Below are positions 45,601 through 64,000 of a DNA stretch of 64,000 nt, in pieces. This DNA is from Syntrophobacterales bacterium (GTDB taxonomy: Bacteria > Desulfobacterota > Syntrophobacteria > Syntrophobacterales > Thermodesulforhabdaceae). The notes under the pieces are model-generated. The model made no database searches, had not been told where the DNA came from, and worked only from the letters and a program-made list of their open reading frames with translations. Every line of letters starts with the position of its first letter. Positions within the stretch are counted from its first letter, which is position 1. The stretch spans positions 1 to 64,000 of the forward strand of contig JAOACS010000029.1 in assembly GCA_026417655.1 (NCBI GenBank). Direction: 5' to 3'. The position numbers and the translations under genes were made by a program.

Positions 45601-47918
45601 CTCTTTATCTCAGCAAGGGGCCTTCCTATATCCTGCTCTCTTAAAAAGAAGGTTCGTGATATAGAAGGAGTAAATCTCCTAACGGTAAATCGCTCATCTA
45701 GAAATATAAGGCCTATGTCTGTGCTGTTTATCATATTTTGAATATCATTATGAAGCTCCAAAAGTTGACGATTCTTCTCTTGATATTCCGCATTTACACT
45801 GAACAATTCTTCGTTAACCGACTGAAGCTCCTCATTACTACTTTGAAGTTCTTCGTTTGCTGCAAGTAGCTCCTCATTAGTGGCCTGAAGTTCTTCATTG
45901 CTCGCTTCTAATTCTTCGACTACCGTCTGTAAATTTTCTCTAGCTTCCTTCAATTCCCGTTCTAACTGCTCTATTCTAGCCTTCGCGGCAGCATCCAAAG
46001 AAAGTGAATCTTCTTCGGAAAAGGCTGGAACTAAACAACCCGTATCTAATCGCACAAAGAAGTAATCAGGATCCTCATCTATTAATGATTCCGTGGTTCT
46101 CTTCTTTAAGGGTTTTATCGTAACATCTAGAAGTTCATGCTGGCCGTCAGAAAACATGTGGATTATATTGCTAAACCTAACAATATCCTTTGTCCTTTGG
46201 CATCTCTCTATAGCTGCACCTATCGCTACCCGTATGTTGCCTTTAAGAAGGCTTAATAACTCGCTCTTTAAAGGTCCTTGCAAATTAAGATATTTATAGG
46301 CATCTCCAAAGGTATGTAGTAAAATACCTGATTTATTTATTAAAAATCCAGAAGGAACACACTGCTCAAACAGCTCATAGTAATCTGTTTTATAGAAATC
46401 TCCAGGGATAGACTTCTCTTTCTGCTGCCCAGTAAACTTTTTATGGCGGTAATAGTGATAAATCTTTACAGGAAATGTTTCATACTCCTTTTTAAATATC
46501 TTCAGCTTAGCATTTACGAGACTTAAACCATCTTCCATATCGCTTAGGCTTTCACTCATTCCCAAAACAAGTATTCCACCCTTTTCTAAGGCAGCATGAA
46601 AGTTTCTAATGACCCTTTCTTGGGCTTCCTTCTTGAAGTATATGAGCACATTTCGGCAGAGTATAAGCTTAAGATGTAGGAAAGGGGGATCTTCCAAAAG
46701 GTTGTGGGGAGCAAATGTTATTAGTCTCCTTATGAAAGGTTTTACCATAAAGTGGTCTTCCGACTCTATGAAAAAGGCCTTTAGTCTATCCTCTGAGACT
46801 GACTTCAACTCATTTTTGGAATACCTCCCTATACCTGCGTAACGAAGAGAGGTCTTATGGATGTCCGTTGCAAAGATTTTTATAGGTGGCCTCACCGATA
46901 GGGCAGCACAAACCTCCTCCAACACGATGGCTATGGAATAGGCCTCTTCACCAGTTGCGCATCCAGCAACCCATACTCTAAATTCCTGATCCTGGGGATG
47001 ACCCATTAGAAGTTCTGGTAGTATCTCTTCCTTAAGCTTTGCGAAGACTTCAGGATCTCTAAAAAACTGGGTCACTTCAATTAATAGATCGTGGTATAGA
47101 TTATCAAGCTCATTCGGGTCGGAAATCAGTATCTCTAGGTACTTTTCAATATTTTCTGCTTTGGAAAGCTGAATTCGTCTTTCGAGGCGTCTTGTAATGG
47201 TAGCCTCTTTATAGAGGGAAAAATCTATATTATAATTAGTGCTTAAAAGCTGAAGAACGAGTTGTTTTGGATCTTCAGACTCTACAAATTTCTGCCTATT
47301 ACTAGCAACATGTTTTTCTACGAAATTCTTCCCATAAAAAATATATTCACATATCTCCTCGGGTGTTCCAACAAAATCTACTGAACCTGTCGAAATGGCA
47401 TTTCTAGGCATACCATCGAACTTTGCACTCTCTGGAGATTGAACGAGCCCCATCCCCCCCGCTGAACGAACCGCCTCTACCCCTCTAGATCCATCACTTC
47501 CCGTCCCAGAAAGAATTACCGCCGTGACCTTGTCCTTTAATTCCTTTGCCAAACTAATGAGAAAGATGTTTATGGGCATATGAGGTTCATGGGGTTTCCT
47601 ATCGAATAGCACAAAGACACCGTTTTTTACCATCATATATTTCCCAGGGGGAATAAGGTAAATTCTATTGGGCTCAGGCTTCATACCATCCGATACTATA
47701 GTACTTGGTATTTCGGTGAATCTAGAAAGGAGTTCGCCCATAACACTTTTATAATCCGGTGCTAGATGTTGTATTATAACAATAGCTTGAGATATTTTAG
47801 AAGGTATTCTTCTAAAGAATCTCTCTAGGGCTTCCAGTCCTCCTGCCGATGCACCTAGGCATATAATTGGCACGAGTGAAGTATCATTTTCTTTTGGTAG
47901 ACTATTCGTATTTCCCAT
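42660..47918 (-). CDS. CheB-CheR-PAS-histidine kinase-REC fusion protein
   Basis: A 1752-residue fused chemosensory protein. Residues 15-200 are a CheB methylesterase without a REC domain, with catalytic S24 (GASAGG), H51 (QHLAP) and D142 (GTGSDGS). Residues 215-480 are a CheR methyltransferase (CATGEEAYSIA). A heptad-like coiled coil at 645-722 repeats NEELQ. PAS-like regions lie around 735-835, 850-970, 985-1090 and 1130-1240. HisKA carries H1273 (SHEIRTP), the ATPase domain runs to about 1490 (DTGPGIP, GSGLGLAIS), a degenerate REC spans 1505-1615, and an intact REC holds D1682. It has no HPt domain. It is cytoplasmic with no membrane span. Confidence 0.92.
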   Translation of the reverse strand: MGNTNSLPKENDTSLVPIICLGASAGGLEALERFFRRIPSKISQAIVIIQHLAPDYKSVMGELLSRFTEIPSTIVSDGMKPEPNRIYLIPPGKYMMVKNGVFVLFDRKPHEPHMPINIFLISLAKELKDKVTAVILSGTGSDGSRGVEAVRSAGGMGLVQSPESAKFDGMPRNAISTGSVDFVGTPEEICEYIFYGKNFVEKHVASNRQKFVESEDPKQLVLQLLSTNYNIDFSLYKEATITRRLERRIQLSKAENIEKYLEILISDPNELDNLYHDLLIEVTQFFRDPEVFAKLKEEILPELLMGHPQDQEFRVWVAGCATGEEAYSIAIVLEEVCAALSVRPPIKIFATDIHKTSLRYAGIGRYSKNELKSVSEDRLKAFFIESEDHFMVKPFIRRLITFAPHNLLEDPPFLHLKLILCRNVLIYFKKEAQERVIRNFHAALEKGGILVLGMSESLSDMEDGLSLVNAKLKIFKKEYETFPVKIYHYYRHKKFTGQQKEKSIPGDFYKTDYYELFEQCVPSGFLINKSGILLHTFGDAYKYLNLQGPLKSELLSLLKGNIRVAIGAAIERCQRTKDIVRFSNIIHMFSDGQHELLDVTIKPLKKRTTESLIDEDPDYFFVRLDTGCLVPAFSEEDSLSLDAAAKARIEQLERELKEARENLQTVVEELEASNEELQATNEELLAANEELQSSNEELQSVNEELFSVNAEYQEKNRQLLELHNDIQNMINSTDIGLIFLDERFTVRRFTPSISRTFFLREQDIGRPLAEIKSLLYSDKDLLEVAKRVYEINRTEETEIMAEHGSYFLQRVSPYRDSTGNVRGVVITYVDITKVKEAERKKEEAELLRQSILDSMDAHIAVIDREGNIIAINRAWREFAKQNQARDFRTMDIGANYFAACACSVDDSAYEDAQKAMAGIRGVLSGRSQYFEMEYPCHSPFEERWFLMRVTPLNRPQGGAVIAHINITEKVKAVNVLRESEERLKTVLDSIQAVVFVMDPLTGGMIFANKYSVNIFGEFEGKKCNEVYNDETGKCLFCIPLETGSSPIGLENIYDREVYYKGRWFSCRNTFITWTDGRTVRVGIATDITELKQLSQELIRIKEEQEKIILDRTRELREKEVILKRAQELGKVGSWVFEHSSGEIIWSEETYRIFGLEPYQEKINYFKFINMVHPEDREKVEEAWLSSISNNMDEYQVEHRSIIRGKVKYLFEKCIHEKDSEGRIVRSFGMVQDITERVENEKKLMKALKMAEEMARKAHEANEAKSRFLANMSHEIRTPLNGIIGATHLLETTNLTPEQKEYVSIIQTSSEVLLGLVEDVLDLSKIEAGQLALKTLPFDIYHMVERITQLMGNNALKKGLELIQIVSPDIPLKLIGDETRIQQIIVNLLSNAIKFTEEGEVGIVVDVVRKRVTEVDLRISIYDTGPGIPKDKLSEIFMEFRQLDDSKARRYEGSGLGLAISSKLAELMGGRIEVESEPGKGSNFSLYITLKIDEVGELLEFPEISLGFTVLYCDPFPNRTENISQWLTRWRINHEIVMESKDLAERLSRKNYDMIIMDERFYSDFVKLDITDRAPMVYVFKGIGGNNFDLSKVKPVLKPITYHKVHSIIINYFSAEIPQETRSLEVQEGKVKRILVVEDNKVNLMVIEKLLQKLNYEVLLASDGVQAISIVKRGEPIDLILMDVHMPKMDGIEATRIIRSLDIPAAKQIPVIALTADALTEDLRKCLAAGMNDIILKPISVEGLKLKLKRWLN

Positions 47919-47994: not shown

Positions 47995-48606
47995 TTACTT
48001 CATTTTACTTCCTGAGACAACTTCAGGGAAAAACTTTTCAAGGCACTCGGGACATAAGGCATGGCTAAATTCAGCTTCAGTTCGGGAACAAATATATTTT
48101 TCAATTTGAATCCACTCACCCTTCTCACTTCGTATTTTCTTACAATGGGCACAAATGGGCAATATACCCCGAAGGGTTTTTATCTCTGCTAATGCTCGAC
48201 TTAACTCTTGAATCTTTTCCGAGAGAGCATCCTGCATTCCGATTATTCGACGACCAACCTCTAATCGGGCCTTTAATTCATTTAGATCACAGGGTTTCGT
48301 CAAATAGTCGTCAGCTCCAGCCTTCAAGGCAGCTACAACATCACTTTTATCCATTTTGCTTGTCAGCATAATTATGTAGGGAGGCTTATCACTAGAATTA
48401 GTCCTAACAAGGCGTAGCACCTCTAACCCATCCATCTCCGGCATTATCCAATCTAGGATGACAAGTCGAGGCGCATCCGGTCTTTGAAGAATTTTCCATG
48501 CCTCAAGACCGTTAGATACTGTTATAACCTCATAACCAGCCTTGCTTAGAATCGCCTTTAAGACTGAGCAGGTTGTGGGATCGTCTTCAGCTATTAACAC
48601 ACGCAT
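47995..48606 (-). CDS. Response regulator with C-terminal cysteine-rich (zinc-ribbon-like) domain
   Basis: A 203-residue protein. REC occupies 1-120, with AEDDPT, D52 in ILDWIMPEMDG and LTKPC in place of the usual KPF. A helix joins it to a C-terminal module with LPICAHCKKIR (C152, C155), FSHALCPEC (H182, C185, C188) and a free C173. Such CxxC-plus-CxxC ends occur on some two-component and PAS proteins and probably bind zinc; their role is not known to me. AGGTG precedes the ATG. It follows the CheY-like gene by seven bases. Confidence 0.88.
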   Translation of the reverse strand: MRVLIAEDDPTTCSVLKAILSKAGYEVITVSNGLEAWKILQRPDAPRLVILDWIMPEMDGLEVLRLVRTNSSDKPPYIIMLTSKMDKSDVVAALKAGADDYLTKPCDLNELKARLEVGRRIIGMQDALSEKIQELSRALAEIKTLRGILPICAHCKKIRSEKGEWIQIEKYICSRTEAEFSHALCPECLEKFFPEVVSGSKMK

Positions 48607-49019: not shown

Positions 49020-49358
49020 CTATACAGGAGATGTAACAGCCTTTACAAACTCTTGAAATTCCTTTTCTAAAAGGGGAAGATTCTGTAATGTAAATGTAAG
49101 GTCTCCATTTTTAAGACTCTCTTCCATCTTAAGTGCTAAGGCTTGAAGGCGTTCCGCCGAAACGTTTGAAGATGCTCCCTTTATAGAATGGGCATATCTT
49201 ACAGCATCTTGAAGTCTACCCTCTTTAAGAGCATCCTTCAAGGATTGGAACTGATTAGGAAAATCCGATATGAATACTTCAACCACTATCTTTACTAACT
49301 CCTCATCCCCTTCAAGTCTTGCGAGAATCGCCTCTTTATTAAATACAGACGAACTCAT
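49020..49358 (-). CDS. Stand-alone HPt phosphotransfer protein
   Basis: A 112-residue helical HPt domain. The phospho-accepting histidine is in RYAHSIKGASSNV, the typical AHxLKGxxxxxG-like motif. The start is ATG 49358, with GGAAGG directly before it; TTG 49379 in the same frame overlaps the preceding stop but has a poorer context. It lies immediately after the hybrid kinase gene. Neither large hybrid kinase in the cluster has its own HPt, so this protein is the likely shared relay. Confidence 0.88.
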   Translation of the reverse strand: MSSSVFNKEAILARLEGDEELVKIVVEVFISDFPNQFQSLKDALKEGRLQDAVRYAHSIKGASSNVSAERLQALALKMEESLKNGDLTFTLQNLPLLEKEFQEFVKAVTSPV

Positions 49359-49375
49359 CTTCCTTCCCCCATTTG

Positions 49376-52189
49376 TCAAAAACCTCTTCTATTTACCCAC
49401 TTATTTATAACCCTTTTCAGATCATCTAGAGACACCGGTTTAGATATGTAATCGTTCATCCCAGCAATAAGACAGGCTTCCTTTATATCCTTTATAGCAT
49501 GGGCAGTCATAGCAATTGTAGGCACATCCTTAGATTTTAGATCCAGTGCAGGATCTCTTATTAGCTTAATAGTGTCAAAACCATCAAGTCCAGGCATTTC
49601 TATGTCCATAAAGACTATATCATAGTAGTTATCCTTCATAAGTGATATGGCCTCATCACCTCCAGAGGCAATATCTACTTTAACCCCAAGCTTTTGTAAC
49701 ATCGCTTGAGCTACCTTCTGATTCACTACGTTATCTTCAACTACGAGAGCTCTTATCTCATAAGGTAGAACCTCCAACCCATTGTCCAAACGATTGTAAG
49801 AAGAGTCGAATAGCTCTTTTAAGGCGCCCTCCATATTTCTTATTCTTATAGGTTTGGATATAATTTTACAATTTCTCAATTCTTCAAGCTGGGACTCATC
49901 CAGTCGGTCACCTATGGAAAGGACTAAGAGTAACTTAATATTAGAAAAGTGGGGGTTTTCTCTTATTTTTTTTATAAACTCAGTCCCCTTTATTTTCGGC
50001 ATTTCTTGATCTATAATTAGTAGTTCAAATCCTTCGCTTGAGATTACCGCCTCGTTAAGTTTTACAAGAGCTATATAAGGATCCTCGACAGTTTCCTGCT
50101 TCATGCCCATGTGTTTCAAAATAATTTCAAGAACCACTCTATCTCCATAGAAACTACCTACTAGAAGACATCTTTTCCCCTGAATCTCGGGTATAATGGG
50201 AAAAGTTGACTTCCCTTCGTCTAATAACCTAAGAGGTATCTCTACCCAGAAAAGGGACCCCTTTCCAAGAGTAGATTCTACTCCTATTTTACCCTGCATT
50301 AGATCTACAAGCCTCTTAGTTATAGCGAGCCCAAGTCCTACGCCTTCATGGATCTTCTTTGTGGTGCGCCCTATTTGTTCAAAGGGGTCAAAGATCGCTT
50401 CAACTTTATCCTTCGGAATACCCGGGCCAGTGTCTTTTACCACAAATCGAACTACCAGCCTATCCCTATGATGGGAAAGAAGATATGAACTAAGTTCTAC
50501 ATAACCACTGTTGGTAAATTTAACGGCATTTCCCAGGAGGTTTAAAAGGACCTGTTTAGTTCTCCTCGGATCTCCTAAGATTTTGGGAGGAATCCTCATG
50601 TCAGGTGCATAGATCAATTCAATCCCCTTTTGTCTTGCCTTTAAAGAAACTGCAGTTATGAGATCGTCCAAAAGCTTGAATAAATCGAAGGGTTCTATTT
50701 CTAGCTCTAACTTACCTGCTTCTATTCTGGAAAAGTCCAAGATATCGTCGATTAACTCCATTAAAAGTTTTGCACTACTCGAGATCAAGTTTACGTAGGA
50801 CCTTTGCTCTTCGCTCATGGACTCGGTCATAAGAAGTTCGGAGAAGCCTATCACGGCGTTTAATGGTGTTCTTATCTCATGGCTCATGGAAGCCAAAAAC
50901 TGCGTCTTAGCTTCTGAGGCAGCCCTCGCCTGGGCTGCCAGTGCTTCGGCTCTTTCTTTCTCCCTAAGAAGTTGCATATTTAACTTTTCTGCTAAAGCAT
51001 TAGCATCGGCAAGCTGAGCATTTAGAGCCGTAAGCTCAGTAACATCGGTAAGCGTAACAATTATGTAATTGAATCCATTCGCCTTTCTTAAGATTTCATT
51101 ACGTATAAATGTCCTTAAGGTGCCATCCAACATTTTTATTTGGGTCTTGGCGCTTATAACCGATTCGCCATCTCCGGACAAGGGACATTCATTGACGGAT
51201 CCTTTGCAAAACAGGTCAAAACATTTGCTTTTCAAGATATCTTCGCGACTCATCTTGGAAGTATCTAACATCTCTGAATTGACCAAAATGACCCTATGAG
51301 TAGCTGGATTTACAACGGCTATGCCTATTGGTATGCTGTTTAGCACATCCTGAAAAAAGGCCTTTTCTTCTATTAACATTTCGGAGTATCTTTTTAATTC
51401 CCGAGCTTGGGCGTAATACTCCGTTACATCTACAAGATAATGTAGAAACTTATCCCCCAAAAGGGGTATCCACCAGATCTCCATGTATCTGGAATCGACC
51501 TTAATAACTTCCTTCTTGGGTAACATGGTATGAAAGGCTTCCTTGGACTTACAATGGATGCATCTTATATCCCTTTCTGAAATTAATCCACCTTCGAAAA
51601 GCCTTCTATCTTCTTCAGAAATGCATCTACCTTCCATTATACCAAGCCAGCAGGGAAGCCCTTCCTTCATTCCCAAGGCCTTCGCGGCCTTATTAGCTTT
51701 AATAACAATACCGTCTCTAGATATAAGGAAGGCAGGCGAAGGAAGCTCATTTACTAGGTTAAATAGCTCTAATTCTTTGGAAACATAATGGGTTATATCA
51801 TCTAAGATGGCGCCCACTATTCTTTCGCCAATCCCGAATACACTAATGACTATATAGGTGCCATTCAGTTCAATCCGAAAGGTCCTGTTTTTCTTGCTCC
51901 TAAGGGCTGAATTGAAGGTTTCGAGTAAACCTTTTAATTCTTCGGGAGGAAGCGAATTAAATACCGAGGCTAGGGTAGGAGAAGTAGATCCTTTTATATT
52001 TAAATTCGGATTCGCCTCAAGGACCCAATTAGTGTAAATGAAAACATAGTCCTCTATCTCACCAGTTTTAGATATAATAGGCTCAAGAATAGCCATTCCT
52101 ATGGGAGACATTAAAACCAGGTCATTCAAGGCCTTTTCGCTAATAGCAGAAATATATTCCCTAAGTTCCATTCTAAAGCTTGACTCCAT
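49376..52189 (-). CDS. Hybrid histidine kinase with PAS and two REC domains
   Basis: A 937-residue cytoplasmic kinase. Residues 15-270 hold two weak PAS-like regions and a cysteine-bearing stretch around 180-213 (C180, C189, C210, C213). A clearer PAS lies at 275-390. HisKA has H437 (SMSHEIRTP), the ATPase domain shows DTGPGIP and GVGLGLAIT. A first REC (670-795) keeps D727 (IIDQEMP) but lacks the acidic pair, so may not be phosphorylated well. The second REC (812-930) is intact with D862. No HPt follows in the protein, but a separate HPt gene begins 18 bases after it. Its start overlaps cheR by 17 bases. Confidence 0.9.
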   Translation of the reverse strand: MESSFRMELREYISAISEKALNDLVLMSPIGMAILEPIISKTGEIEDYVFIYTNWVLEANPNLNIKGSTSPTLASVFNSLPPEELKGLLETFNSALRSKKNRTFRIELNGTYIVISVFGIGERIVGAILDDITHYVSKELELFNLVNELPSPAFLISRDGIVIKANKAAKALGMKEGLPCWLGIMEGRCISEEDRRLFEGGLISERDIRCIHCKSKEAFHTMLPKKEVIKVDSRYMEIWWIPLLGDKFLHYLVDVTEYYAQARELKRYSEMLIEEKAFFQDVLNSIPIGIAVVNPATHRVILVNSEMLDTSKMSREDILKSKCFDLFCKGSVNECPLSGDGESVISAKTQIKMLDGTLRTFIRNEILRKANGFNYIIVTLTDVTELTALNAQLADANALAEKLNMQLLREKERAEALAAQARAASEAKTQFLASMSHEIRTPLNAVIGFSELLMTESMSEEQRSYVNLISSSAKLLMELIDDILDFSRIEAGKLELEIEPFDLFKLLDDLITAVSLKARQKGIELIYAPDMRIPPKILGDPRRTKQVLLNLLGNAVKFTNSGYVELSSYLLSHHRDRLVVRFVVKDTGPGIPKDKVEAIFDPFEQIGRTTKKIHEGVGLGLAITKRLVDLMQGKIGVESTLGKGSLFWVEIPLRLLDEGKSTFPIIPEIQGKRCLLVGSFYGDRVVLEIILKHMGMKQETVEDPYIALVKLNEAVISSEGFELLIIDQEMPKIKGTEFIKKIRENPHFSNIKLLLVLSIGDRLDESQLEELRNCKIISKPIRIRNMEGALKELFDSSYNRLDNGLEVLPYEIRALVVEDNVVNQKVAQAMLQKLGVKVDIASGGDEAISLMKDNYYDIVFMDIEMPGLDGFDTIKLIRDPALDLKSKDVPTIAMTAHAIKDIKEACLIAGMNDYISKPVSLDDLKRVINKWVNRRGF

Positions 52190-53024
52190 TTCTCAATTGA
52201 TAGAATACGGCTCTTAAATACCTCTTCGCTTCGAATTCAGGAGCGATACCCGCAAGGGACTCTGTAGCACCAAGTATAAGAGCGCCATGGGGCTCTATAA
52301 CCTTTGTCATTCGTTTAAACAAAACAATTTTATCCTTTTCTTGAAAGTATATGGCAACGTATCTACAAAATACTATATCGTGCTTTCCTATGAAGGTGAA
52401 GTCCTGCATTAAGTTTATCTTTTTAAAGGTAGCAAGGGCTCTAATCTCATCTATTATTTTATAACCGTGAGGGGTTAGGACAAAATATTTTTGAAGCTTG
52501 TCTGGAGGAAGCCCTCTTTCCACTTCAAGCTTAGTATAGATCCCTCGAGATGCCCTCGCGATGGCTTCATCCGATATATCCGAACCGAGGATTCTTATGT
52601 TATACCCGTTGAAGTTGCCCAAAAGCTCCTTTAGCACTATTGCTATACTGTAAACCTCCTGCCCTGAGGAACATCCTGCCGACCATATCTTTATGGAAAT
52701 GGGTCCCCTAGGATTTTGACTTTTTTTCTTATCTATAAGTTCGGGAAGGATTTTGTTCTGAAGGAGTTGAAACACGGGAGGGTCTCGAAAGAACATGGTT
52801 TCGCCAGTAGTAATCGCATCTATAATCTTTTGGGCTATCTTTCCCGAGGTATCACTTTTAGCCTTTACATAGAGCTCAGAAAAGGTACCACAACCAAGCT
52901 CCCTTATCAGATTGGAAAGCCTAGTTTCAAAGAGATAAGCCTTTGTATCACCCAGGGTAATGCCAGTTAAGTCATATATATACTTTGAAAATACCTTCAA
53001 CTCTTCTGGCAGGATTTTTATCAT
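52173..53024 (-). CDS. cheR: Chemotaxis protein methyltransferase
   Basis: A 283-residue SAM-dependent enzyme that methylates glutamates of the chemoreceptors. The N-terminal helical domain is followed by GETMFFRDPPVFQLL, the SAM-binding WSAGCSSGQEVYSIA and FCRYVAIYF. It starts on a four-base overlap with cheB and runs 17 bases into the hybrid kinase gene. A second CheR domain exists in the 1752-residue fusion, so receptor methylation may have two sources in this cluster. Confidence 0.95.
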   Translation of the reverse strand: MIKILPEELKVFSKYIYDLTGITLGDTKAYLFETRLSNLIRELGCGTFSELYVKAKSDTSGKIAQKIIDAITTGETMFFRDPPVFQLLQNKILPELIDKKKSQNPRGPISIKIWSAGCSSGQEVYSIAIVLKELLGNFNGYNIRILGSDISDEAIARASRGIYTKLEVERGLPPDKLQKYFVLTPHGYKIIDEIRALATFKKINLMQDFTFIGKHDIVFCRYVAIYFQEKDKIVLFKRMTKVIEPHGALILGATESLAGIAPEFEAKRYLRAVFYQLRNGVKL

Positions 53025-54127
53025 AAAAGGATACCCCTTACAGACTTCACTATCTCCATCGCTATCCTATCAAGAGGTATCACCAGGTCTACAACACCTG
53101 CCTTAATAGCTTCTCCTGGCATACCAAAAACTACGGAGGTAGCCTCATCCTGGGCTATTACTCTAGCCCCTTTTCTCTTTAGTAATCGGAGGCCCATTAC
53201 TCCGTCATTTCCCATACCCGTCATTATTACCGCAATAACCCTTCCCGTATAGTAGTTGGCAATTGACCTAAAGAGATAATCGACGGATGGTTTACAATTG
53301 TTTTCGGGAGGATCGTCTGTTATGATTATTACATATTTGCTATTATCTTTGGGGGATATCTTCATCTGTTTTCCCCCTGGCGCTATGTATACAAAACCCT
53401 GTTGAAGTTCCTCCTGATCTTCTGCTTCCTTCACTCTGAGAGAGCTTTTTTCATTGAGGCTGTTTGCCAGAGATTGAGTAAATATAGGGGGCATATGTTG
53501 GACAATCAAAACGGGGGATGGTAAATCCTTTGGAAGAGCGGGGATCACTTGACTCAGGGCGTTAGGACCACCAGTGCTTATCCCTATGGCTACCAATGGT
53601 TGTTTTACCAAGGTGGTGGCAGGTTTGTCGAAGACTTCCAGGGGAGTAGACTCTGGCATGGAAACTGGTGTAGAGGGAAGGGGGGATGGCTTAGTTTTAA
53701 GGATCTTCCTTATTTCCCATTTTCTTCTGTAAGAACTGATTATAGGACCTAGGGCTTTAACCAAACAATTGAGACTTTCCTGGGGTCCCATGCCCGTAGG
53801 CTTAGTGATAAAATCGAAGGCCCCAAGCTCTAGAGCCTTTATAGTAAGAGCAGAACCGGCCTTCGTAAAACTACTAACAACAATTACTCCTACATCTAGC
53901 ATCTGTTTCTTAAGTTCTGCCATGACTTCCAGGCCGCCCATCTCCGGCATTTCTATATCCAAAGTGATCATGTCAGGCTTATGAAGCTTTATCATTTCGA
54001 GAGCTTTTCTACCGTTGTGGGCGAAACCAATAACCTCCACATCAGGGATTCTACTTAGAGCCTCTGTAATTATTTTCCTATAAAGGGCTGTATCGTCAAC
54101 GACTAAGATACGGATCTTCCTATGCAT
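53021..54127 (-). CDS. cheB: Chemotaxis methylesterase with REC domain
   Basis: A 368-residue protein. The REC domain (1-120) has VVDDTALYR, LDIEMPEMGG and a TKPTG loop. The C-terminal esterase has the serine in IGISTGGPNAL, the histidine in IVQHMPPIF and the aspartate in GMGNDGVMGL, the complete CheB triad. Linker about 145-180 is proline-rich. Phosphorylation by CheA would activate demethylation of receptors. Its start overlaps cheW by eight bases and its end overlaps cheR by four. Confidence 0.95.
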   Translation of the reverse strand: MHRKIRILVVDDTALYRKIITEALSRIPDVEVIGFAHNGRKALEMIKLHKPDMITLDIEMPEMGGLEVMAELKKQMLDVGVIVVSSFTKAGSALTIKALELGAFDFITKPTGMGPQESLNCLVKALGPIISSYRRKWEIRKILKTKPSPLPSTPVSMPESTPLEVFDKPATTLVKQPLVAIGISTGGPNALSQVIPALPKDLPSPVLIVQHMPPIFTQSLANSLNEKSSLRVKEAEDQEELQQGFVYIAPGGKQMKISPKDNSKYVIIITDDPPENNCKPSVDYLFRSIANYYTGRVIAVIMTGMGNDGVMGLRLLKRKGARVIAQDEATSVVFGMPGEAIKAGVVDLVIPLDRIAMEIVKSVRGILL

Positions 54128-54581
54128 GGAACATAACCTCTAGGTTCAGAATGGATATGGTTTTATCACTCTTTCTAAGGATACCCACAAAATAGGGTCT
54201 TGCCATTTCGGGAATATTAGATGGGACTTCTCCTAAATCACTGGACTCTGCTTCCGTCACTTCACCTACATCCTTTACTGCTATACCGATTTGTTCATTT
54301 TTGAGGTTAAGAATGATTATTTTGGTATAGTCTCTATGATATTGTTGTGCATATTCGCTGTCTTCAAAAAGCTTGGTAGGTATATCCATTATAGTAACGA
54401 TTTGTCCTCTAAGGTTTATAACACCAAGAATATATGGGGCTGCTTTGTAAACTTTGGTGATCTCCGTCCATGAGATGACCTCTTGAACCACTTCCATCTT
54501 AACGCCAAAGAGTTCCTCCCCAATCCAGAATGTTATGTATTGGGTGTTCGTATTGTCTGAAAATAGGCTAGTAGAGTCCAT
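54120..54581 (-). CDS. cheW: Chemotaxis coupling protein
   Basis: A 153-residue CheW adaptor linking receptors to the CheA kinase. Typical segments are QYITFWIGEELFGVKM, WTEITKVYKAAPYILGVINLRGQIVTIMDI and ILNLKNEQIGIAVKDVGEV. GAGGGG precedes ATG 54581. It lies between the first receptor and cheB with short gaps and overlaps, so one transcript is likely. Normal length. Confidence 0.94.
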   Translation of the reverse strand: MDSTSLFSDNTNTQYITFWIGEELFGVKMEVVQEVISWTEITKVYKAAPYILGVINLRGQIVTIMDIPTKLFEDSEYAQQYHRDYTKIIILNLKNEQIGIAVKDVGEVTEAESSDLGEVPSNIPEMARPYFVGILRKSDKTISILNLEVMFHA

Positions 54582-54594
54582 CCCATCACCCCTC

Positions 54595-56391
54595 TCACAC
54601 CTTGAAACTGGCCATAAGAGCCTTAAGTCTCATTCCGAGCTTGGAAAGCTCCTTCGCATTCTCAAAGAGTTCTTCACTTCTTCCCTTAAGACTATCCCCT
54701 ATCATTCTTATCTTTCCTATATCAGAAGCCACACTCTCTAGAGCCCCTGAGACATCTTTTACCTTCCTATTGGAATCGTCCACCTCCTCTGTGGCTCTAC
54801 CGATGTTTTGAGCAATATCTTTCATAACAACCGATTGTTCTTCTATAGCAGCCGCGATGGTGGAAACTAGTTCTCCCACCTCTTTAATGACCGAAATTAT
54901 TTTTTCTATGTCTTCTACAGCCTTCCTAGTCGTGTCCTGAGTAGCCAATACTTTCATCTTTATATCCTCGGTCGCCTCACCCGTTTGTTGAGCAAGTTCC
55001 TTTATTTCTGAGGCCACTACTTGAAACCCCTTTCCTGCTGCACCAGCTCTTGCTGCCTCAATTGTAGCATTAAGGGCAAGAAGATTCGTCTGATTGCTAA
55101 TACTCGTTATGGCATCCACTACTTTCCCTATTTCCTGGGCGGATTGTCCCAACTCCCTGACTATTGCGGAAACCTTTTCGCCATGGAGCATAGCATCTTC
55201 ACTTATTCTTCTGGCCTTTTCCGTGCTGGAAGCGATCTCCGTTATAGTATAGGTCATCTCTTCAGTACTCTGAGCAACTACACGAAGATTCTCTGTCACT
55301 CTGTCCATATTTGAAACCAGCATAACAACACTGGCACTCACTTCCTCTGCAGCTGCAGCAACCGACTGGGTTCTTTCGGAGGTTTCGGCGGAAGTATTCT
55401 TCAACTCCTCACTGAGATCCTTTAGCTTATTGGAAGCCCTATTCAAGGCCTCTGTGCCTCTTGTGACTTCGCTAATGGATCCCCTTAGGTCAGCCGTTAG
55501 AACCTCAATAGCCTTAGCTATCTCACCCATTTCATCGCGTTTATGCCTTAGCTCTTCCGGAATCGGACTAGAAAAGTCACCCTTTCCCAGGACCTTTAGG
55601 TAGCTAGATGCAATGGAGATAGGTTTTGTCACATAGCGATTTATTAAGACAATAAAGAGCACAGCCATAATCATAAAGGCTATAGCACCCGCTATACCCC
55701 TTTTAACTACGTAAGACCTTAGATACGCGTTCACAGGTGCAAGGGACTGAATCACCTCAAAGGCACCATGAACTTCCCCCTCCTTCCACCCTTCCATTCT
55801 ACCACCGGTTATATCTACTCCCCTGTCGTTACCCCAGATCTCCTTAGAGGTTTTTGGATCCCCGTGGCAATACAAACAGTTCTTCGAAAGCACTACCGCC
55901 CTGAAATAGCGAACCGTGTTCTTTTCACGATCCAAAACCCATTTTTCCAAAACCTCTCCCCTTTCAAGCTCTTTAAGAACCTCCATCTCTACAGGATCTG
56001 GTTCATTTTTAGGATTTCTAGCCTGAAGTTTAGGCGTTCTTAAGGTGTAACCTGCTTCATCTTGCCTTTTTTGAACCGCCTTCCATGAGGAAACCACAGG
56101 GACTGCTTCCATAACCTTGTCTATCTTTCCCTCTTGGGTCCATGATTTTAATTGATCCACAGTAAAGAGTCCCGCTTCCCACTTGTCCTCCATTCCATCC
56201 CTTATTGCCTCTGCAGTAAGACACAGGGCCCTCGCCCTATCAACATATGCTCTTATGGCATCTTCTTTTGCACCTTTATAGCCAGTAATCATTATCCCTG
56301 AAACAAGCGCTAGAGGTAGCAAAATGCCAACCAGAACAACCTTCCACCTTATGGACAAACTATTTAAAAACAACAAAGGGTTAAATTTCAT
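54595..56391 (-). CDS. Methyl-accepting chemotaxis protein with CxxCH (Tll0287-like) sensor
   Basis: A 598-residue receptor. An N-terminal membrane segment (17-39) and a second (about 233-252) frame a periplasmic sensor that contains CLYCH (C172, C175, H176), a haem-c attachment motif found in the DUF3365/Tll0287-like family. HAMP follows (VTKPISIASSY), then the cytoplasmic signalling hairpin with the conserved [17 protein letters not shown] tip. There is no C-terminal CheR-tethering pentapeptide. A redox or gas ligand is a fair guess. It lies between cheW and the second receptor. Confidence 0.9.
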   Translation of the reverse strand: MKFNPLLFLNSLSIRWKVVLVGILLPLALVSGIMITGYKGAKEDAIRAYVDRARALCLTAEAIRDGMEDKWEAGLFTVDQLKSWTQEGKIDKVMEAVPVVSSWKAVQKRQDEAGYTLRTPKLQARNPKNEPDPVEMEVLKELERGEVLEKWVLDREKNTVRYFRAVVLSKNCLYCHGDPKTSKEIWGNDRGVDITGGRMEGWKEGEVHGAFEVIQSLAPVNAYLRSYVVKRGIAGAIAFMIMAVLFIVLINRYVTKPISIASSYLKVLGKGDFSSPIPEELRHKRDEMGEIAKAIEVLTADLRGSISEVTRGTEALNRASNKLKDLSEELKNTSAETSERTQSVAAAAEEVSASVVMLVSNMDRVTENLRVVAQSTEEMTYTITEIASSTEKARRISEDAMLHGEKVSAIVRELGQSAQEIGKVVDAITSISNQTNLLALNATIEAARAGAAGKGFQVVASEIKELAQQTGEATEDIKMKVLATQDTTRKAVEDIEKIISVIKEVGELVSTIAAAIEEQSVVMKDIAQNIGRATEEVDDSNRKVKDVSGALESVASDIGKIRMIGDSLKGRSEELFENAKELSKLGMRLKALMASFKV

Positions 56392-56463: not shown

Positions 56464-58797
56464 TTATCTCGAAATCCTATCCAAAATTTCATAAAGCTCC
56501 TTCGACAGTTCGAAGCTCTTATTGTAAAGCTCAAAGGCGCTCCTTTTATCTCCCCTATTAAAGGCTACAACTGCCTCCTTTATGGACTTATGGAAATTTT
56601 CATGTATAATACCTAATCTCCTAAAATCTTCATCTCTTTGTAGGTCCTTTAACTCTACACTATAATACCATTTACCCAGTTCGCAGGAAGTATGGTCTGC
56701 AATCTCTGATTCCGAAACTGTAATCTTCCCATTTAATGCGTCGAGGAGTTTAGCTCTTATAGTGGCATGAGCCCGTTTTATATTAACTATATCTAGGACT
56801 AATCCTACCTTAAACCCTCTCAAACTTTCACTCATACTATTTGCGCTCTTTGCGAGTAAATCTACTACCTGCTTCATCTGATAACCTACCTTCATAAGTT
56901 CCCCTGCCAAAGCGTTCACACCAGCGACCTCTTGGGTTACACTTTCTGTGGCAGTAGCATTTTCATTTAGCATGCGAGCCGTATCGGAAATTCCTACCGA
57001 GATCTGGGCTACATTGTTCGCTATATCCTTTGTTACAACGGATTGTTCCTCGATAGCGGTGGCGATTGTATGCACTATTTCGTTCATTTCCTTTGTAACC
57101 GATACCACCTCTAGGATATCGTTACTTGCGCTCTTTGTGCTCTCCTGCACTGCTTGTATTCTTTTTTTAATATCCTCTGTGGCCAAAGCGGTCTGTTGTG
57201 CTAGTTCTTTTATTTCCGTAGCAACAACGGCAAAGCCCTTTCCCGCAGCGCCGGCTCTGGCCGCCTCTATAGTCGCGTTAAGGGCCAATAGGTGGGTTTG
57301 GTTAGAAATACCCGTTATCGTCTCTGTAACCTTTCCTATATCTTCTGCCGCCTGGGACAGTTTATCCATAATTTCTGAAAGAGCTTGGGCCTTATAGGTG
57401 GCTTCATCGGTTATTCTCCTCGCCTTTTCAGCATTGCTAGCTATTTCCGTTATGGTTGCTGTCATCTCTTCCGTAGCGCTGGCAACGCTATTGATACTAC
57501 GACTAGCCTCTTCCATGGCCCGGGATACAGAATTAATATTGGCCGACATCTCTTCCGCTGCAGCAGCAACTACGGCAGATTTAGAAGCTGTTTGATCCGT
57601 AGAGGTCTTTACCACATCACTACAGGAAAAAAGTTCCTGGGACATAGCACCTACTGTTGAGGCGGTCTTTATAAATGAGGCAAAGAGTTTTCTGAGAGTG
57701 TCCACAAAGCTATTAAAATAAGTTCCCATTGTTCCAAGTTCATCATTTGTAGTAACAGGGATTGATTTTGTAAGATCCCCTTCACCCTGTGAAATCTCCT
57801 TTAGCATTGTTATCATGTTATTAATTCTGGTGCTTATATCTCGAATAAATATAATATTCATAAAGATAATACCTATGGATATGATAACTAGAGTGGCTAC
57901 GATGATTACCATCTTCTTGAAGATATTAGAATAGGCCCTCTTCACAAACTCTTCCGATGCCTTAAGCTCTATTGAAGTAATCTTAAAAAGTTTTTCGATA
58001 GCCTTTGTTGAAACATCAAAATACTTCTCAGGACTTAACCCATATTGTCCCTCTTCAGCCCTGACGAAAACATGCTCTATCATGCTCATCATGTCAGCAT
58101 ACTCTTTCGACTTCATTAGATCTAACATCGCCTGTTGTCCCTGTTCTGACAATACGAGAACTCTGGATTTTAGAGTGGAATTAACAAGACCTACCTTCTC
58201 CATTATAAAGGCCTTGTTTTCTGAAGATATGGGCTGATTTGCGGCTATTATACTCGAAACGGTTCCTCTAAGAACTGCTAGACCCTCCTGAGCCGATCTA
58301 ATAAGAGCTAAGCTTACAAATCTCTTTCCCATACCAGCAGCAGTTCTCGCATTGGTTATATCTCCATCTATAGCCAAAATACCTTCCGTAACCTTTTTAA
58401 ACTCCTCCACAACCTTTTGAGGGGGATTACCAGGCTGCACCAATTTCCTTGTGTATTCTAAATTCTGGAGGGCCTTATCCACCTTACTAAGCCATTTGAA
58501 GCTAGGTTTTTCCTTCTGAACATAATCCTGGTAAGCCTTTATGGCGATATCGGTATTAGATCTCTGGGAAATAACATCGCCCATGTTACCAGTTATAACC
58601 GCCATAGCGCTTAAACCGCGCTCCTTTTGAAGCTCCGTTAATATATTGGACGTATACAGTAAAATACTGTTCAACTCCTTCATGTCATCAAAAATTCTTT
58701 TATCCTCCACTTGCTTCACAACCATTATGGCTGTTAGAACCAGAGAGAATAAAAGGGGTATCGCGGTAGAAATAATAATTTTCTTTTTGATCGTCAT
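56464..58797 (-). CDS. Methyl-accepting chemotaxis protein with NIT-like sensor and C-terminal CZB zinc domain
   Basis: A 777-residue receptor. Membrane segments lie at about 10-27 and 295-320. The region between has [10 protein letters not shown], the hallmark of the nitrate/nitrite-sensing (NIT) domain family. The signalling domain has the [17 protein letters not shown] tip. The last 110 residues fit a chemoreceptor zinc-binding domain: H677, [12 protein letters not shown] with H702 and C705, and H732/H736. Zinc bound there can report on oxidants such as hypochlorous acid in known cases. AAAGGAGG lies eight bases before the ATG, overlapping the cheA end. Confidence 0.9.
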
Positions 58798-58798
58798 C

Positions 58799-61700
58799 TT
58801 AGATGCCTCCTTTCGCTTTGGTAAAAATAAGATCCTTCACTGCCCTAACTAGATTTTCCCTATCCAACTTTATCTGATATTCATCGACTCCCACTTTTTT
58901 ACCCTTTTCTATGTCTTCCTCCGATGCAAGGGAAGTAAGAGCTATTACTGGAAGGTGTGAAAGCCTAGGATCTGACTTTACAATCTTTGTGAGGCTGAAC
59001 CCATCTAGTCTGGGCATTTCTATATCTGTCAGAAGTAAAGATATCTTACTGGATTGTTCCCTTAATATATCCAGAGCTTCCTGTCCATCATGAGCTTCAA
59101 TGACCTGATAACCCTCTTCGATTAAAAATCCTTTTACATATTGTCTAAAGAAGTCAGAATCCTCTGCCAGTAAGACTATGGGTCCCTGGTGGAAGGTTCT
59201 TTCTCTATCTAATTCAACCTCCTCAGATACCCATTCTGGGAAGAGGTTTTCTATAAGCTCGTCCACATTAATAAGCAGAGTAGTCCTCCCATCCATTATT
59301 ATGGATCCGGCGATCCCAGGCTGCCTCAGGGTTTTTTCGTCTAAAACCACTCTAACCTCCACCGCATCTACAGGCATTGTTCCTAGAAGACCTACTTCAT
59401 GATTTTTATACTTTAAAAGAATCACCACCTTTTCATCCTCAAGATCTAATTCCTTAACCCTGGCCAAATCGGAAAGAGTTACTAAAGGCAAAGAGACCTT
59501 ACCATGTTTAATGGTTCTTCTTCCTCCTATGTATTCTATTTCTTCCCCTTTTATCTTCATTATTCTCTCAACCCGGGAAAGAAGCACTGCACAGGGCTCA
59601 TCTTCCGAGTTATAGAAAGTAAGAAGATTCAATCTATCTTCCGCTTCCTGAGCCATAACCTCTGAAGCCAACTCTTCAGCCCTTTTGGTTCCTTCCATTG
59701 AAACCAGTCCACATTGAGCCGCTATTCCTGCTGCATCAAGAACTAAAGCAACCTTTCCATCTCCCATTATGGTTGCCCCTGCATATTCCTTTAGATCCTT
59801 AAGATGTTTCCCCAAGGGCTTAACAACTATTTCTACGGTATCATGAAGCTTATCCACAATAAGTCCGTATTCTAGGGCACCTGCATTAAGCACAACTATA
59901 TGGATACCACTTTGAAGGGATCTCCTATCTTTTAGTGATCTCCTATCAAAATGGACAACCTTCTTGCTCTCTATCTCCTTTGCAGATGTTTCCAGATCAA
60001 GATGAAGAGATCTTCTATCGGCTATACGTTTTCTCCTATCGGGCTCTAGTTTTCCTGTCTTAGGATCCAGGTAGAATCTAGGCATATTTAGCGCGTCAGC
60101 TAATCTTACAAGAGGAATTAGTTTTCCTCTTAGAACTAGCACCTCTGCATTTCCTACCACTTCTATTCTATTTTTTATTTGGTCCGGAGGGATAAATATA
60201 AGTTCCTTGACATGAACCTGCGGTATGGCAAATCTATCTTGCCCAACGGCCACCATGAGGCTTGGAAGAATTGCCAAAGTAAGAGGAAGTCTGATTCTAA
60301 AGGTAGTTCCTCTATCAATCTGGGATTCTATTTCTATTTTACCTCCCAGCTTTTCCAAATTGGTCTTTACAACATCCATTCCAACGCCTCGGCCCGATAG
60401 ATCGGTGACCATTTCCTTTGTAGAAAGTCCAGGGAGAAAAATAATCGCCAGCCTTTCCTTTTCCCCCATCGCCCTAGCTTGATCGGGAGTTATAAGACCC
60501 TTCGCTATCGCTTTCTGGGTAACTCTTTCGGCGTCTATGCCTGAACCATCGTCTTTTACTTCTATCACCACCTGACCTGCTTCATGGTAAGCCCTTAAAA
60601 CCAACTGGCCTACCTTTGGCTTTCCCTTTTTTAATCTCTCCTCGGGAGGCTCAATACCATGATCTATAGCATTTCTAACCATGTGAGTAAGGGGATCGCT
60701 TAAACCTTCAACGAGAGTCTTATCCATTTCTACATCAGAACCATAGATCTCTAGATTGATCTCTTTTCCAAGTTTTCTTGACATGTCCCGCACCACCCTT
60801 GGAAACTTATTAAACACGTTTCCAATAGGCTGGAGCCTTGTAAGCATTATAGTCTCCTGAATATCCGAGGTGACAACATTTATCCTCTGAACAGAGGTTT
60901 GGAGTATTCTCTTGTCTCCACTACTTAGAGCTTCAAGGAGTTGGTTCCTTGCCAGAACCAATTCCCCTGCCAAATTCATCAGATCTTCCAAAAGCTCCAC
61001 TCTAATTCTTATAGTCGTATCCTTAGGGGTTTCCTTTACAAGGGGCTCCCGTTGAGCTTCAGCGTAAAGGATTTCCCCTCTTTGTTCTGGAGTTTTCTTA
61101 ATTGGCATCTCTACCTGGGCAACGGTAACCTCCGGGATGGGTAGAGCTTCATCTCTTACTTCTACCTCCTGCTTGGATTCCTGAGCCCTTTGCATCTCCA
61201 TTAAGTTTTCGTTGGGATCAAAAATAAGATGGACCTTCTCCCCATCTATGTCGAAGAGAATTTGGGCGTGTTCTGGTTCTAAAATCGTGGAGAAAAGGAC
61301 TAACCAATTAAGCTGACTTGTAGGTAGGTCATCGAGAGATCCCACCGTTGTAATATCAAATGCTGTGCCCACTATCTCACCCGTTTCTTTCAATTCCCTC
61401 AATATGTCTATAGGTTTCTTGCCCCTTCTTTGAACGTCGTCTATTAGGTCATAACACACTAAATATAGATATTTCCCATTTTCCTTCACCCGTTGATAGT
61501 CTAGCTCCGTAATTACTACCTCTCCTTTTACGCCTGGAGCAGTTATCTTTACTTCCTTTTGGATCGACTGTTTCATAGAGGGAGGTAGATTGGCGGAAGT
61601 AAGTCCCAGCAAGGAAACTATAAGCTCAGAAACGTCTATCTCATTACTTTGAGCTGGGTTATTTATCATCTCCTTTAGCTTATCGAAGGCAAGAAGAAGG

Positions 61701-61966
61701 ATATTTACCACATCGGGGGTAGGAACAAGCCTCCCTGATCTAATAAGGTCCAGCACATTTTCTGTCTTGTGGGCAAGTTCCTGGATGTTTTTGAGATCAA
61801 AAAAGCCGGCACCGCCCTTAATACTATGGGCAGCCCTAAACACCTTGTTTACCAGCTCGGGGTTTATGTTTTCCCCCATTGATTCTATCTCTAGAAGATC
61901 AGCCTCAATGTTTTCCAAATGCTCTCTCGACTCGGCAATAAACTCATTCAAAAGACTATCGTCCAT
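58799..61966 (-). CDS. cheA: Chemotaxis histidine kinase with two CheW domains and REC
   Basis: A 1055-residue kinase, far longer than E. coli CheA. The HPt domain holds H47 ([12 protein letters not shown]). Residues 150-250 form an unassigned region in the P2 position. P3 dimerisation and P4 ATPase lie at about 320-560 ([29 protein letters not shown]). The first CheW-like domain (about 565-750) has an insert rich in DRRSL repeats. A second CheW-like domain lies at about 775-910. A REC with D981 ([12 protein letters not shown]) is C-terminal. This architecture is like CheA of Pil/alternative cellular function systems. GAGGG precedes the ATG. Confidence 0.93.
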
Positions 61967-61986: not shown

Positions 61987-62307
61987 TTAGTTACCTTGGA
62001 TAAGGAAATACTTATCTAACCTCAGGGCCTTAAAAAGCTCGAGGTTTCTTTCGGAAATATTCTTAATGATAAGTTTCCCCCTAAATTTCGATAAAGAATT
62101 ATAGACTGCAACCAAAAAACCGATCCCTGAGGAATCTACAATCTCCACATCCTTCATATCAAACTCTAATTCTGTAACCCCTGAACTTATCATGCCCTTT
62201 ACGGCATCTCTCATGGAGCCTACCGTCGTTGCCGTAAGGTCAACCCTTGGATTAAAATAACCTTTACTACCCTGTTTCTTTATCTCAAAACCAAACTGAT
62301 TTTCCAT
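61987..62307 (-). CDS. STAS-domain anti-sigma factor antagonist
   Basis: A 106-residue single STAS domain of the SpoIIAA/RsbV type. The regulatory serine is in VEIVDSSGIGFLVAV, the usual DSSG site for phosphorylation by the partner kinase. CAGGAG precedes ATG 62307. It lies between the RsbW-like kinase gene and cheA, so the partner-switching module joins the chemotaxis operon directly. Confidence 0.93.
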   Translation of the reverse strand: MENQFGFEIKKQGSKGYFNPRVDLTATTVGSMRDAVKGMISSGVTELEFDMKDVEIVDSSGIGFLVAVYNSLSKFRGKLIIKNISERNLELFKALRLDKYFLIQGN

Positions 62308-62311
62308 AGTC

Positions 62312-62719
62312 TCACTCCTGAAATGTTAATCTCCTTATCAGAGAAACCGAATTACCCTTTCTATTAAAGACCACTTTATCAGAATAGAGCTTATATATGC
62401 AAATACCTCTACCAGACGTATCGGTCGGTTCAGTGCATCTATTGAGCCGCTGTCTCCAGTCAAAACCAGTCCCATCATCCTTCACCGTTATTCTAATCCT
62501 GGAGTCCTGAATCCTTATTTCACAAAATACCGATAAGGAATTATCGGACTTACAGCCGTGAATTATGGCATTATTTAAGGCCTCCCTCAAAAGGAGGGTA
62601 ACGGCAAATATTTCCCCCTCTAGATTCAATTTACTAAACCAGGTTTTAACAGAGCTACACAATATATCCACCGACCTAAGGTCGGCAGGTAATATCCAAA
62701 TTTTCCTATGTTCTTTCAT
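62312..62719 (-). CDS. RsbW-like ATP-binding protein (anti-sigma-factor serine kinase type)
   Basis: A 135-residue HATPase_c-like protein of the anti-sigma-factor/serine kinase family. The N-box is REALNNAIIHG, and VKDDGTGFDW and GRGICIYKLYSD form the rest of the nucleotide pocket. It would phosphorylate the STAS protein encoded next and be counteracted by the PP2C protein encoded upstream. The start codon overlaps the end of that phosphatase gene by four bases. No sigma factor is encoded in the window, so its second partner is unknown. Confidence 0.9.
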   Translation of the reverse strand: MKEHRKIWILPADLRSVDILCSSVKTWFSKLNLEGEIFAVTLLLREALNNAIIHGCKSDNSLSVFCEIRIQDSRIRITVKDDGTGFDWRQRLNRCTEPTDTSGRGICIYKLYSDKVVFNRKGNSVSLIRRLTFQE

Positions 62720-63834
62720 AACTCCACTGCTAAAAGTGTTATGTCATCATCTTGGTTGGCTTTCTCTTCCACTATAGATTCCACCAACCTTTCGACAAAA
62801 AGATCGAGAGAAAGATTCATGAGCCTTCTGGCCCTATCTGAGATCAAGTCTACAGCCTGCTTTATATTAAAGTATTTCATCTTCTTGTGTTCAAGTAGTC
62901 CGTCGGAATAGAGTATTATCCTATCTCCAGCCTTTAGGAAAATCTCTTCTTCAGAAAGCGAAATAATGGGGAAAGCGCAAAGAAGGTCCCCGTCGGTTTT
63001 AAGAATTTGAACATCCCCATCTCTTCTAAGAACTAATGCGGGGGGGTGCCCTGCGGTAATATATCTTACGTGGCGAGTATTACGATTAATCCTAACGGCC
63101 ACAGCACTCAGAAACATCTCTTCCGGCATAAGGGGACAAAGGGTATTTTGGATGTTTTTGAAAAGTTCCGTTAAGGTATTTACCATATTAAAATTTTGCC
63201 TAATGATTACCTTAAGAGCCGACGTCACAAAGGCCGATTTAAGATCGTGGCCAGAAATATCTCCTAGAAAAAATCCATAGATATTGTTTCCTATCTCGAC
63301 AACATCGTAAAAATCTCCCCCTGCTCCACTTAGGGGGCTATAATAGACAGCAAAGCGAGCCTCAGGAAGATCCTCAGGTTTTACAAGAATAGCCTTTTGA
63401 GCAACCTCTAGGGTCTTTAACTGTTCCTTCTGAAGGACCTGTAACCTCTCAATCGCCTCCCGTATCTTGAGGTGGACCTTTATCCTAGCAAGCAGTTCCT
63501 GCACTTCAACGGGTTTGGTAATGTAGTCTACTCCTCCTAAAGAGAGGCCTTTGACCTTATCTTCTACCTTGTCTGCTGCAGATAGGAATATAACGGGTAT
63601 GTCAGTTAAAGACGGCTCTTTTTTCAGGGATTTTAGAGTCTCATAGCCATCAAGCCCTGGCATAATTACATCTAAGAGTATTAGATCTGGAATGTTCTGT
63701 AGAGCAACTTCAATAGCCTGGTAGCCATCTTCCGCATATGTTATAGAAAAACCCTCTTTCCTGAGAATATTCCCTATGATTAGCCTATCTATCTTCGAAT
63801 CATCAACAATAAGTATCATGGGGGGTTTTCTCAT
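62716..63834 (-). CDS. Response regulator with PP2C-type phosphatase domain (RsbU/SpoIIE-like)
   Basis: A 372-residue protein. REC (1-120) has IVDDSKIDR, the aspartate D55 in [11 protein letters not shown] and TKPVEV. A coiled coil joins it to a PP2C/SpoIIE phosphatase (about 155-372): GAGGDFYDVV, GDISGHDLKSA and NQDDDITLLAVEL carry the metal-binding acidic residues. By analogy it would dephosphorylate the STAS protein when its REC domain is phosphorylated, tying a two-component signal to partner switching. A second in-frame ATG (63819) cannot be excluded as start. Confidence 0.92.
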   Translation of the reverse strand: MRKPPMILIVDDSKIDRLIIGNILRKEGFSITYAEDGYQAIEVALQNIPDLILLDVIMPGLDGYETLKSLKKEPSLTDIPVIFLSAADKVEDKVKGLSLGGVDYITKPVEVQELLARIKVHLKIREAIERLQVLQKEQLKTLEVAQKAILVKPEDLPEARFAVYYSPLSGAGGDFYDVVEIGNNIYGFFLGDISGHDLKSAFVTSALKVIIRQNFNMVNTLTELFKNIQNTLCPLMPEEMFLSAVAVRINRNTRHVRYITAGHPPALVLRRDGDVQILKTDGDLLCAFPIISLSEEEIFLKAGDRIILYSDGLLEHKKMKYFNIKQAVDLISDRARRLMNLSLDLFVERLVESIVEEKANQDDDITLLAVEL

Positions 63835-63837
63835 CTT

Positions 63838-64000
63838 CTATCTATCTCTCTCCAGGCTCTCCAATTTATCTTCCGACCCTTTTGGTAACCACTTTTCCAG
63901 CATCTCGGCCAAAGCTCTGAGTGATACCGGCTTGGACACATAGTCATTCATACCAGCTTCTAAACACTTCTCTCTATCTTCCTGAAAAGCCCGGGCAGTC
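63838..64000 (-). CDS. C-terminal end of a REC-domain protein, cut by the window edge
   Basis: The final 54 residues of a minus-strand gene whose start lies beyond 64000. The segment [20 protein letters not shown] followed by SKPVSLRAL is the end of a receiver domain like those on hybrid kinases in this cluster, and [17 protein letters not shown] closes it. The stop TAG (63840-63838) lies three bases before the REC-PP2C start, so it is the preceding gene of the same operon. Whether it is a regulator or a hybrid kinase cannot be seen. Confidence 0.85.

Follow-up and report, generated by a model that had tools for sequence, protein, structure and literature searches.

The window, i.e. the whole analysed stretch of 64,000 nucleotides, carries on its minus strand three genes of a putative partner-switch module directly before a cheA gene, within a long run of signalling genes. 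In the direction of transcription, the features are as follows:

63838..64000, minus strand: C-terminal end of a 1645-aa dCache/CHASE/PAS hybrid kinase, ending 3 bp upstream of the PP2C gene
62716..63834, minus strand: REC-PP2C (SpoIIE-type) serine phosphatase response regulator, 372 aa (Pfam)
62312..62719, minus strand: RsbW/SpoIIAB-like serine kinase/switch protein, 135 aa (Pfam)
61987..62307, minus strand: RsbV/SpoIIAA-like protein with a single STAS domain, 106 aa (Pfam)
58799..61966, minus strand: CheA, 1055 aa, with Hpt (H47), ferredoxin-like P2-position domain, kinase core, three CheW-like domains and REC (Pfam, P2-position domain excepted)
61193..61537, minus strand: P2-position domain of CheA, without a Pfam family
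56464..58797, minus strand: chemoreceptor with NIT sensor (nitrate/nitrite), HAMP, MCP signalling and C-terminal CZB zinc-binding domain
54595..56391, minus strand: chemoreceptor with Tll0287-like sensor and CLYCH (c-heme) motif, probably a c-type-heme receptor
54120..54581, minus strand: CheW (best match of the relatives' cheW genes)
53021..54127, minus strand: CheB (matched in relatives)
52173..53024, minus strand: CheR (matched in relatives)
49376..52189, minus strand: hybrid histidine kinase, 937 aa, with PAS, HisKA, HATPase and two REC domains (domain matches)
49020..49379, minus strand: stand-alone Hpt protein, 119 aa

The preliminary description had the module running directly into cheA with overlaps. 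The three genes, their coordinates and the strand hold, but only the PP2C and RsbW genes truly overlap (4 bp), whereas gaps of 4 bp and 20 bp separate RsbW from STAS and STAS from cheA; in several relatives the STAS gene and cheA overlap by 4 bp. The operon starts upstream of the module: ahead of the PP2C gene and past the window edge lie two hybrid kinases that resemble each other, both of the dCache/CHASE/PAS kind (1645 and 1842 aa). Downstream of cheA follow the two chemoreceptors, CheW, CheB, CheR, the hybrid kinase, which is a possible second input via the Hpt protein, the Hpt protein itself and two REC proteins. One REC protein (47995-48606) has a C-terminal CxxC...CPxC motif, a possible zinc site, and the next gene along the minus strand (42660-47918) encodes a 1752-aa CheB-CheR-PAS-HisKA-HATPase-REC fusion. 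From 42660 to about 74288 all large genes of the contig lie on the minus strand and all are signalling genes. A domain-complete CheA together with CheW, CheB, CheR and MCP in a single gene run makes this a CheA-type chemosensory system. It is not a classical flagellar chemotaxis operon, as a cheY adjoining cheA is absent in the window and was also undetected in what is visible of the relatives' module operons; the window carries a 131-aa REC protein farther downstream of cheA.

The existence of a REC-PP2C phosphatase, an RsbW-like kinase and a STAS protein beside cheA was borne out by strong Pfam matches (REC 1e-28 and SpoIIE 5e-36 for the phosphatase, HATPase_c_2 2e-17 for the kinase, STAS 2e-11 for the STAS protein). 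In the phosphatase, the phospho-site residues of the receiver (D11/D12/D55/S85/K107) and all four aspartates of the PP2C metal site (D174/D192/D311/D364) are intact. The kinase has E46, N50, D81, G83 and R104 with intact E/N and GRG boxes, and S59 of the STAS protein, located in VDSSG, aligns with the DSSG serine of SpoIIAA. In the PDB, the STAS protein matched SpoIIAA and the kinase SpoIIAB, and the closest full-length match of the phosphatase was the REC-PPM response regulator 3eq2/3f7a. This is RssB of P. aeruginosa, in which crossing linkers join REC to the PPM phosphatase domain (PMC12143880), and by analogy it is a structural precedent for the REC-PPM phosphatase fusion. For SenB (PDB 9qih), also met among the PDB matches, no paper was traced in the open-access literature. 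The kinase stays below the NCBIfam equivalog cut-offs for RsbW/SpoIIAB. An intact phosphatase, a GHKL-type kinase and a phosphorylatable STAS serine are all present, and the module is thus a predicted partner switch of the RsbU/RsbW/RsbV type.

In CheA, Pfam recognizes Hpt with its histidine, H-kinase_dim, HATPase_c, three CheW stretches and REC. The P2-position domain gave neither a Pfam match nor a significant PDB sequence match, and its model is ferredoxin-like without a significant fold match. The best match of a joint Hpt-P2 model was a P1-CheY/P2 complex, but its overall TM was low, which does not suffice to identify the domain as a classical P2.

The genome of the organism (96% complete) encodes three CheAs. 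Its only SpoIIE domain and its only HATPase_c_2 protein over the cut-off are those of the module. Of its two STAS proteins the second, a neighbour of MlaE, MlaD and an ABC ATPase, is therefore MlaB-like. The absence of a sigma factor from the window, already noted in the preliminary description, extends to the contig, which carries none of the six sigma-70-family genes of the genome (RpoD, a 434-aa group-2 sigma, an RpoH-like protein, FliA and two small ECF-sized proteins). FlgM is also encoded, and the group-2 sigma, FliA/FlgM, RpoH and the ECFs are candidate clients of the RsbW-like kinase.

Conservation of the gene order, suggested earlier as a check, was found in 16 loci from eight families: the window's own, three of Bryobacter and twelve of further relatives. 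As the order is kept in all of these at roughly 25-47% identity, the arrangement of module and cheA is not due to chance. Bryobacter, whose PP2C proteins are 41-42% identical to that of the window, provided the only close matches among named genomes. In the PP2C tree the window's protein falls into a clade of 20 members (support 98/90), 19 of which adjoin CheA or a CheA Hpt-P2 fragment. A module unlinked to cheA in relatives, which had been named as evidence against a connection, was thus not what was seen. In the sole exception (L074, genome G301) the neighbours of the module are hybrid kinases, and CheA is absent. The converse linkage fails, since many CheAs of the wider class retain only STAS or nothing of the module. 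Within the taxonomic order of the window, CheA of the close class (score over 1600 bits) and a close PP2C occur together in exactly five genomes and are both missing in the other 34; a congener (G037) has neither, and the operon is also missing in other family members. The CheA tree requires the module to have been gained or lost several times, and we tentatively favour an old module with repeated loss. At one locus (L132) a PP2C of another lineage adjoins the same CheA class, so a PP2C was recruited or replaced at least once more. Mirror-tree correlation with the CheA core was weak for PP2C (0.20) and reached 0.55 for RsbW and 0.38 for STAS. Apart from that of the window, module operons showed no second response regulator in the part of the cheA gene run that is visible; several of these runs are cut where the contig ends, fall into pieces under the gap rule or have cheB/cheR on the opposite strand. 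Owing to the same gap rule, the gene-run script lists L127 and L132 as STAS-only, although both carry PP2C and RsbW. The ORFs called in the GC-rich DNA of three loci (L127, L130, L131) are untidy, yet the SpoIIE-RsbW-STAS-CheA order still holds.

Further evidence comes from variant loci. In L076, RsbW and STAS are fused, and in L077 (9417-11330) REC-PP2C-RsbW-STAS form one protein, the only fusion of all module parts; both loci adjoin an Hpt-P2-STAS_2-like protein without a kinase core. In L069, L070 and L072 an Hpt-P2 protein lies between the module and a 700-770-aa CheA. The P2-position domain thus accompanies Hpt next to the module also at loci that lack the kinase core, and the constant neighbour is the phosphodonor half of CheA and not the kinase core. 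In the clade g41 (L127, L130, L131) the link to CheA is kept, but the PP2C receiver lacks any phospho-acceptor residues, so phosphotransfer cannot be the link there, and the link is either different or lost.

A STAS gene alone, with conserved serine, precedes cheA in operons of the groups f45, f12 and f37. In all seven f45 genomes searched a module-type RsbW was not found while the STAS serine is intact; five of the seven gave a weak RsbW match to a protein of about 300 aa elsewhere, a REC-HATPase protein in the two that were read. The REC-PP2Cs of f45 (L094, L095, L156) were considered as trans partners of STAS and rejected, as they have no adjoining RsbW and the next gene is Hsp20-like as read. 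L135 has only STAS, with the serine changed to alanine, plus a REC protein, and looks intermediate. Where relatives of CheA occur without the module, the gene next to cheR on its downstream side usually encodes a REC-coiled-coil or REC-REC protein, and the former is apparently an alternative output. In L136, L141, L142, L144, L145 and L146, where a partner switch is absent, it is an uncharacterised protein of about 190-220 aa. The P2-position domain was undetected in many module-free operons, but L133, L136 and L138 have it though STAS is absent. A second arrangement was seen in f19 (L092, L098, L100, L101, L106), namely STAS-(STAS-like)-cheY-cheA-cheW-cheR-x-cheB-REC.PP2C-REC.RsbW, with a PP2C of a different lineage from that of the window.

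Taken together, we consider it fairly likely that the locus encodes a chemosensory array with a partner-switch output, in which the signal runs from phosphorylated CheA via REC-PP2C, STAS and RsbW to a client. The receptors, whose signals are probably of redox or nitrogen-oxide type as judged from the c-heme motif and the NIT and zinc domains, would set CheA autophosphorylation, and the CheA Hpt domain would hand its phosphate to the receiver of REC-PP2C, which would take the usual place of CheY. The phosphorylated receiver may then reorder the helical linker and switch on the PP2C domain, which would strip the phosphate from the STAS serine, and the dephosphorylated STAS protein would bind the RsbW-like kinase, which drops its client. 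At low CheA activity RsbW would rephosphorylate STAS and hold the client, and the REC domain of CheA together with CheB/CheR would serve signal termination and adaptation. The client would probably be a sigma factor encoded elsewhere (the group-2 sigma, or FliA through FlgM), but may be another protein. We infer phosphotransfer, direction of control and client from gene content, intact residues, uniqueness, linkage and fusions. The chemosensory route to a sigma factor or other STAS target that the preliminary description had suggested is supported in part.

Parts of this scheme have counterparts in known systems. In P. aeruginosa, HptB phosphorylates the REC-PP2C protein HsbR, which dephosphorylates the STAS protein HsbA (PMC6482189); this HptB-HsbR-HsbA(-FlgM/HsbD/RpoS) pathway resembles the one proposed here in leading from an Hpt donor via REC-PP2C to STAS, but HptB is fed by hybrid kinases instead of CheA, and phosphatase and kinase are fused there. 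The che locus Che1 of Shewanella oneidensis contains CrsR-CrsA, which controls RpoS (PMC6482189, PMC9855816), and a role of Che1 itself in RpoS control is described as possible only (PMC9855816; PMC6482189). Here, too, partner-switch genes (the REC-PP2C-kinase CrsR and the STAS protein CrsA) lie within a chemosensory locus; however, CrsR is one multidomain protein and the locus has CheY and CheD, whereas the window has three separate genes directly before cheA, and its CheA carries several CheW domains and is fused to a REC. A single REC-PP2C-kinase polypeptide of the CrsR/HsbR type is found only in the fusion locus mentioned above. The Bacillus systems RsbU-RsbW-RsbV and SpoIIE-SpoIIAB-SpoIIAA share the PP2C, HATPase kinase and STAS proteins with conserved catalytic residues, but the phosphatase of the window has a receiver and sits in a che operon, with no dedicated sigma gene adjoining. 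STAS-only proteins in chemotaxis operons are mentioned in passing in a review (PMC8256260), and CheS of Sinorhizobium/Agrobacterium (PMC12654446) is likewise a single STAS protein encoded in a che cluster; it is said to act together with CheA and CheY, whereas the window has adjacent kinase and phosphatase genes and keeps the phospho-serine. A description of the PP2C-RsbW-STAS-cheA gene order was not found in the open-access literature.

The output of the array via the partner switch is supported by the uniqueness of the module, the order in 16 loci, the PP2C clade, the Hpt-P2 and fusion loci, the intact residues, the PDB matches and the HptB-HsbR-HsbA precedent, and by the contrast between module operons, in which no further response regulator was detected outside the window, and module-free relatives, which usually have one after cheR. 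Against this reading count the receiver loss in g41, the module without CheA in L074, the weak PP2C mirror-tree and the hybrid kinases and Hpt protein of the window as a possible donor. It is conceivable, but in our view not likely, that the phosphate comes from a phosphorelay of the hybrid kinases (1842, 1645 and 937 aa) and the 119-aa Hpt protein, the che genes being merely co-expressed or a second input. Two of these kinases lie directly upstream (3 bp) and the Hpt gene downstream, G301 combines the module with hybrid kinases alone, and in the precedent HptB drives HsbR (PMC6482189); on the other hand, in relatives with module and cheA the cheA gene run always contains CheA but no hybrid kinases were found in it, and the Hpt-P2 part of CheA remains a neighbour of the module also at loci lacking the kinase core.

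We regard it as quite improbable that STAS acts mainly on CheA as a CheS-like accessory, possibly via the P2-position domain, with PP2C/RsbW setting its phosphorylation and no sigma-type client. The lone STAS genes of f45, f12 and f37 and the f45 genomes without module-type RsbW fit this idea, as do the binding of CheA by the STAS protein CheS in S. meliloti (PMC12654446), the STAS_2-like ends of the Hpt-P2 proteins in L076/L077 and the many STAS-free operons in which the P2-position domain was undetected. However, the conserved serine implies a phosphocontrol that would be superfluous for plain CheA binding, and some STAS-free operons do have the domain (L133, L136, L138). A combination, in which STAS switches RsbW and also docks on the P2-position domain, also seems unlikely to us. 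The output would then feed back on the kinase as a memory or gate, and the feedback half would be all that STAS-only operons have retained. The patchy occurrence of the operon, which may move as a block, would suit a common stress partner switch that was transferred along with the che genes and is functionally unlinked to them. Against this stand the same order at such low identity in at least eight families, a PP2C clade almost confined to CheA neighbours and a different output regulator in operons that lack the module, and we give it hardly any credit.

As the module stands in place of a motor output and the pairing is kept in distant relatives, the target of the array is probably gene expression or another cell programme. 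If the proposed partner-switch output is true, these operons would represent a class of chemosensory systems with a serine-phosphorylation switch, not the motor, as main output, in which chemoreceptor arrays with adaptation are linked to gene expression. The genes, residues and natural fusions described here would also be concrete material to test the chemosensory-to-sigma link proposed for Shewanella.
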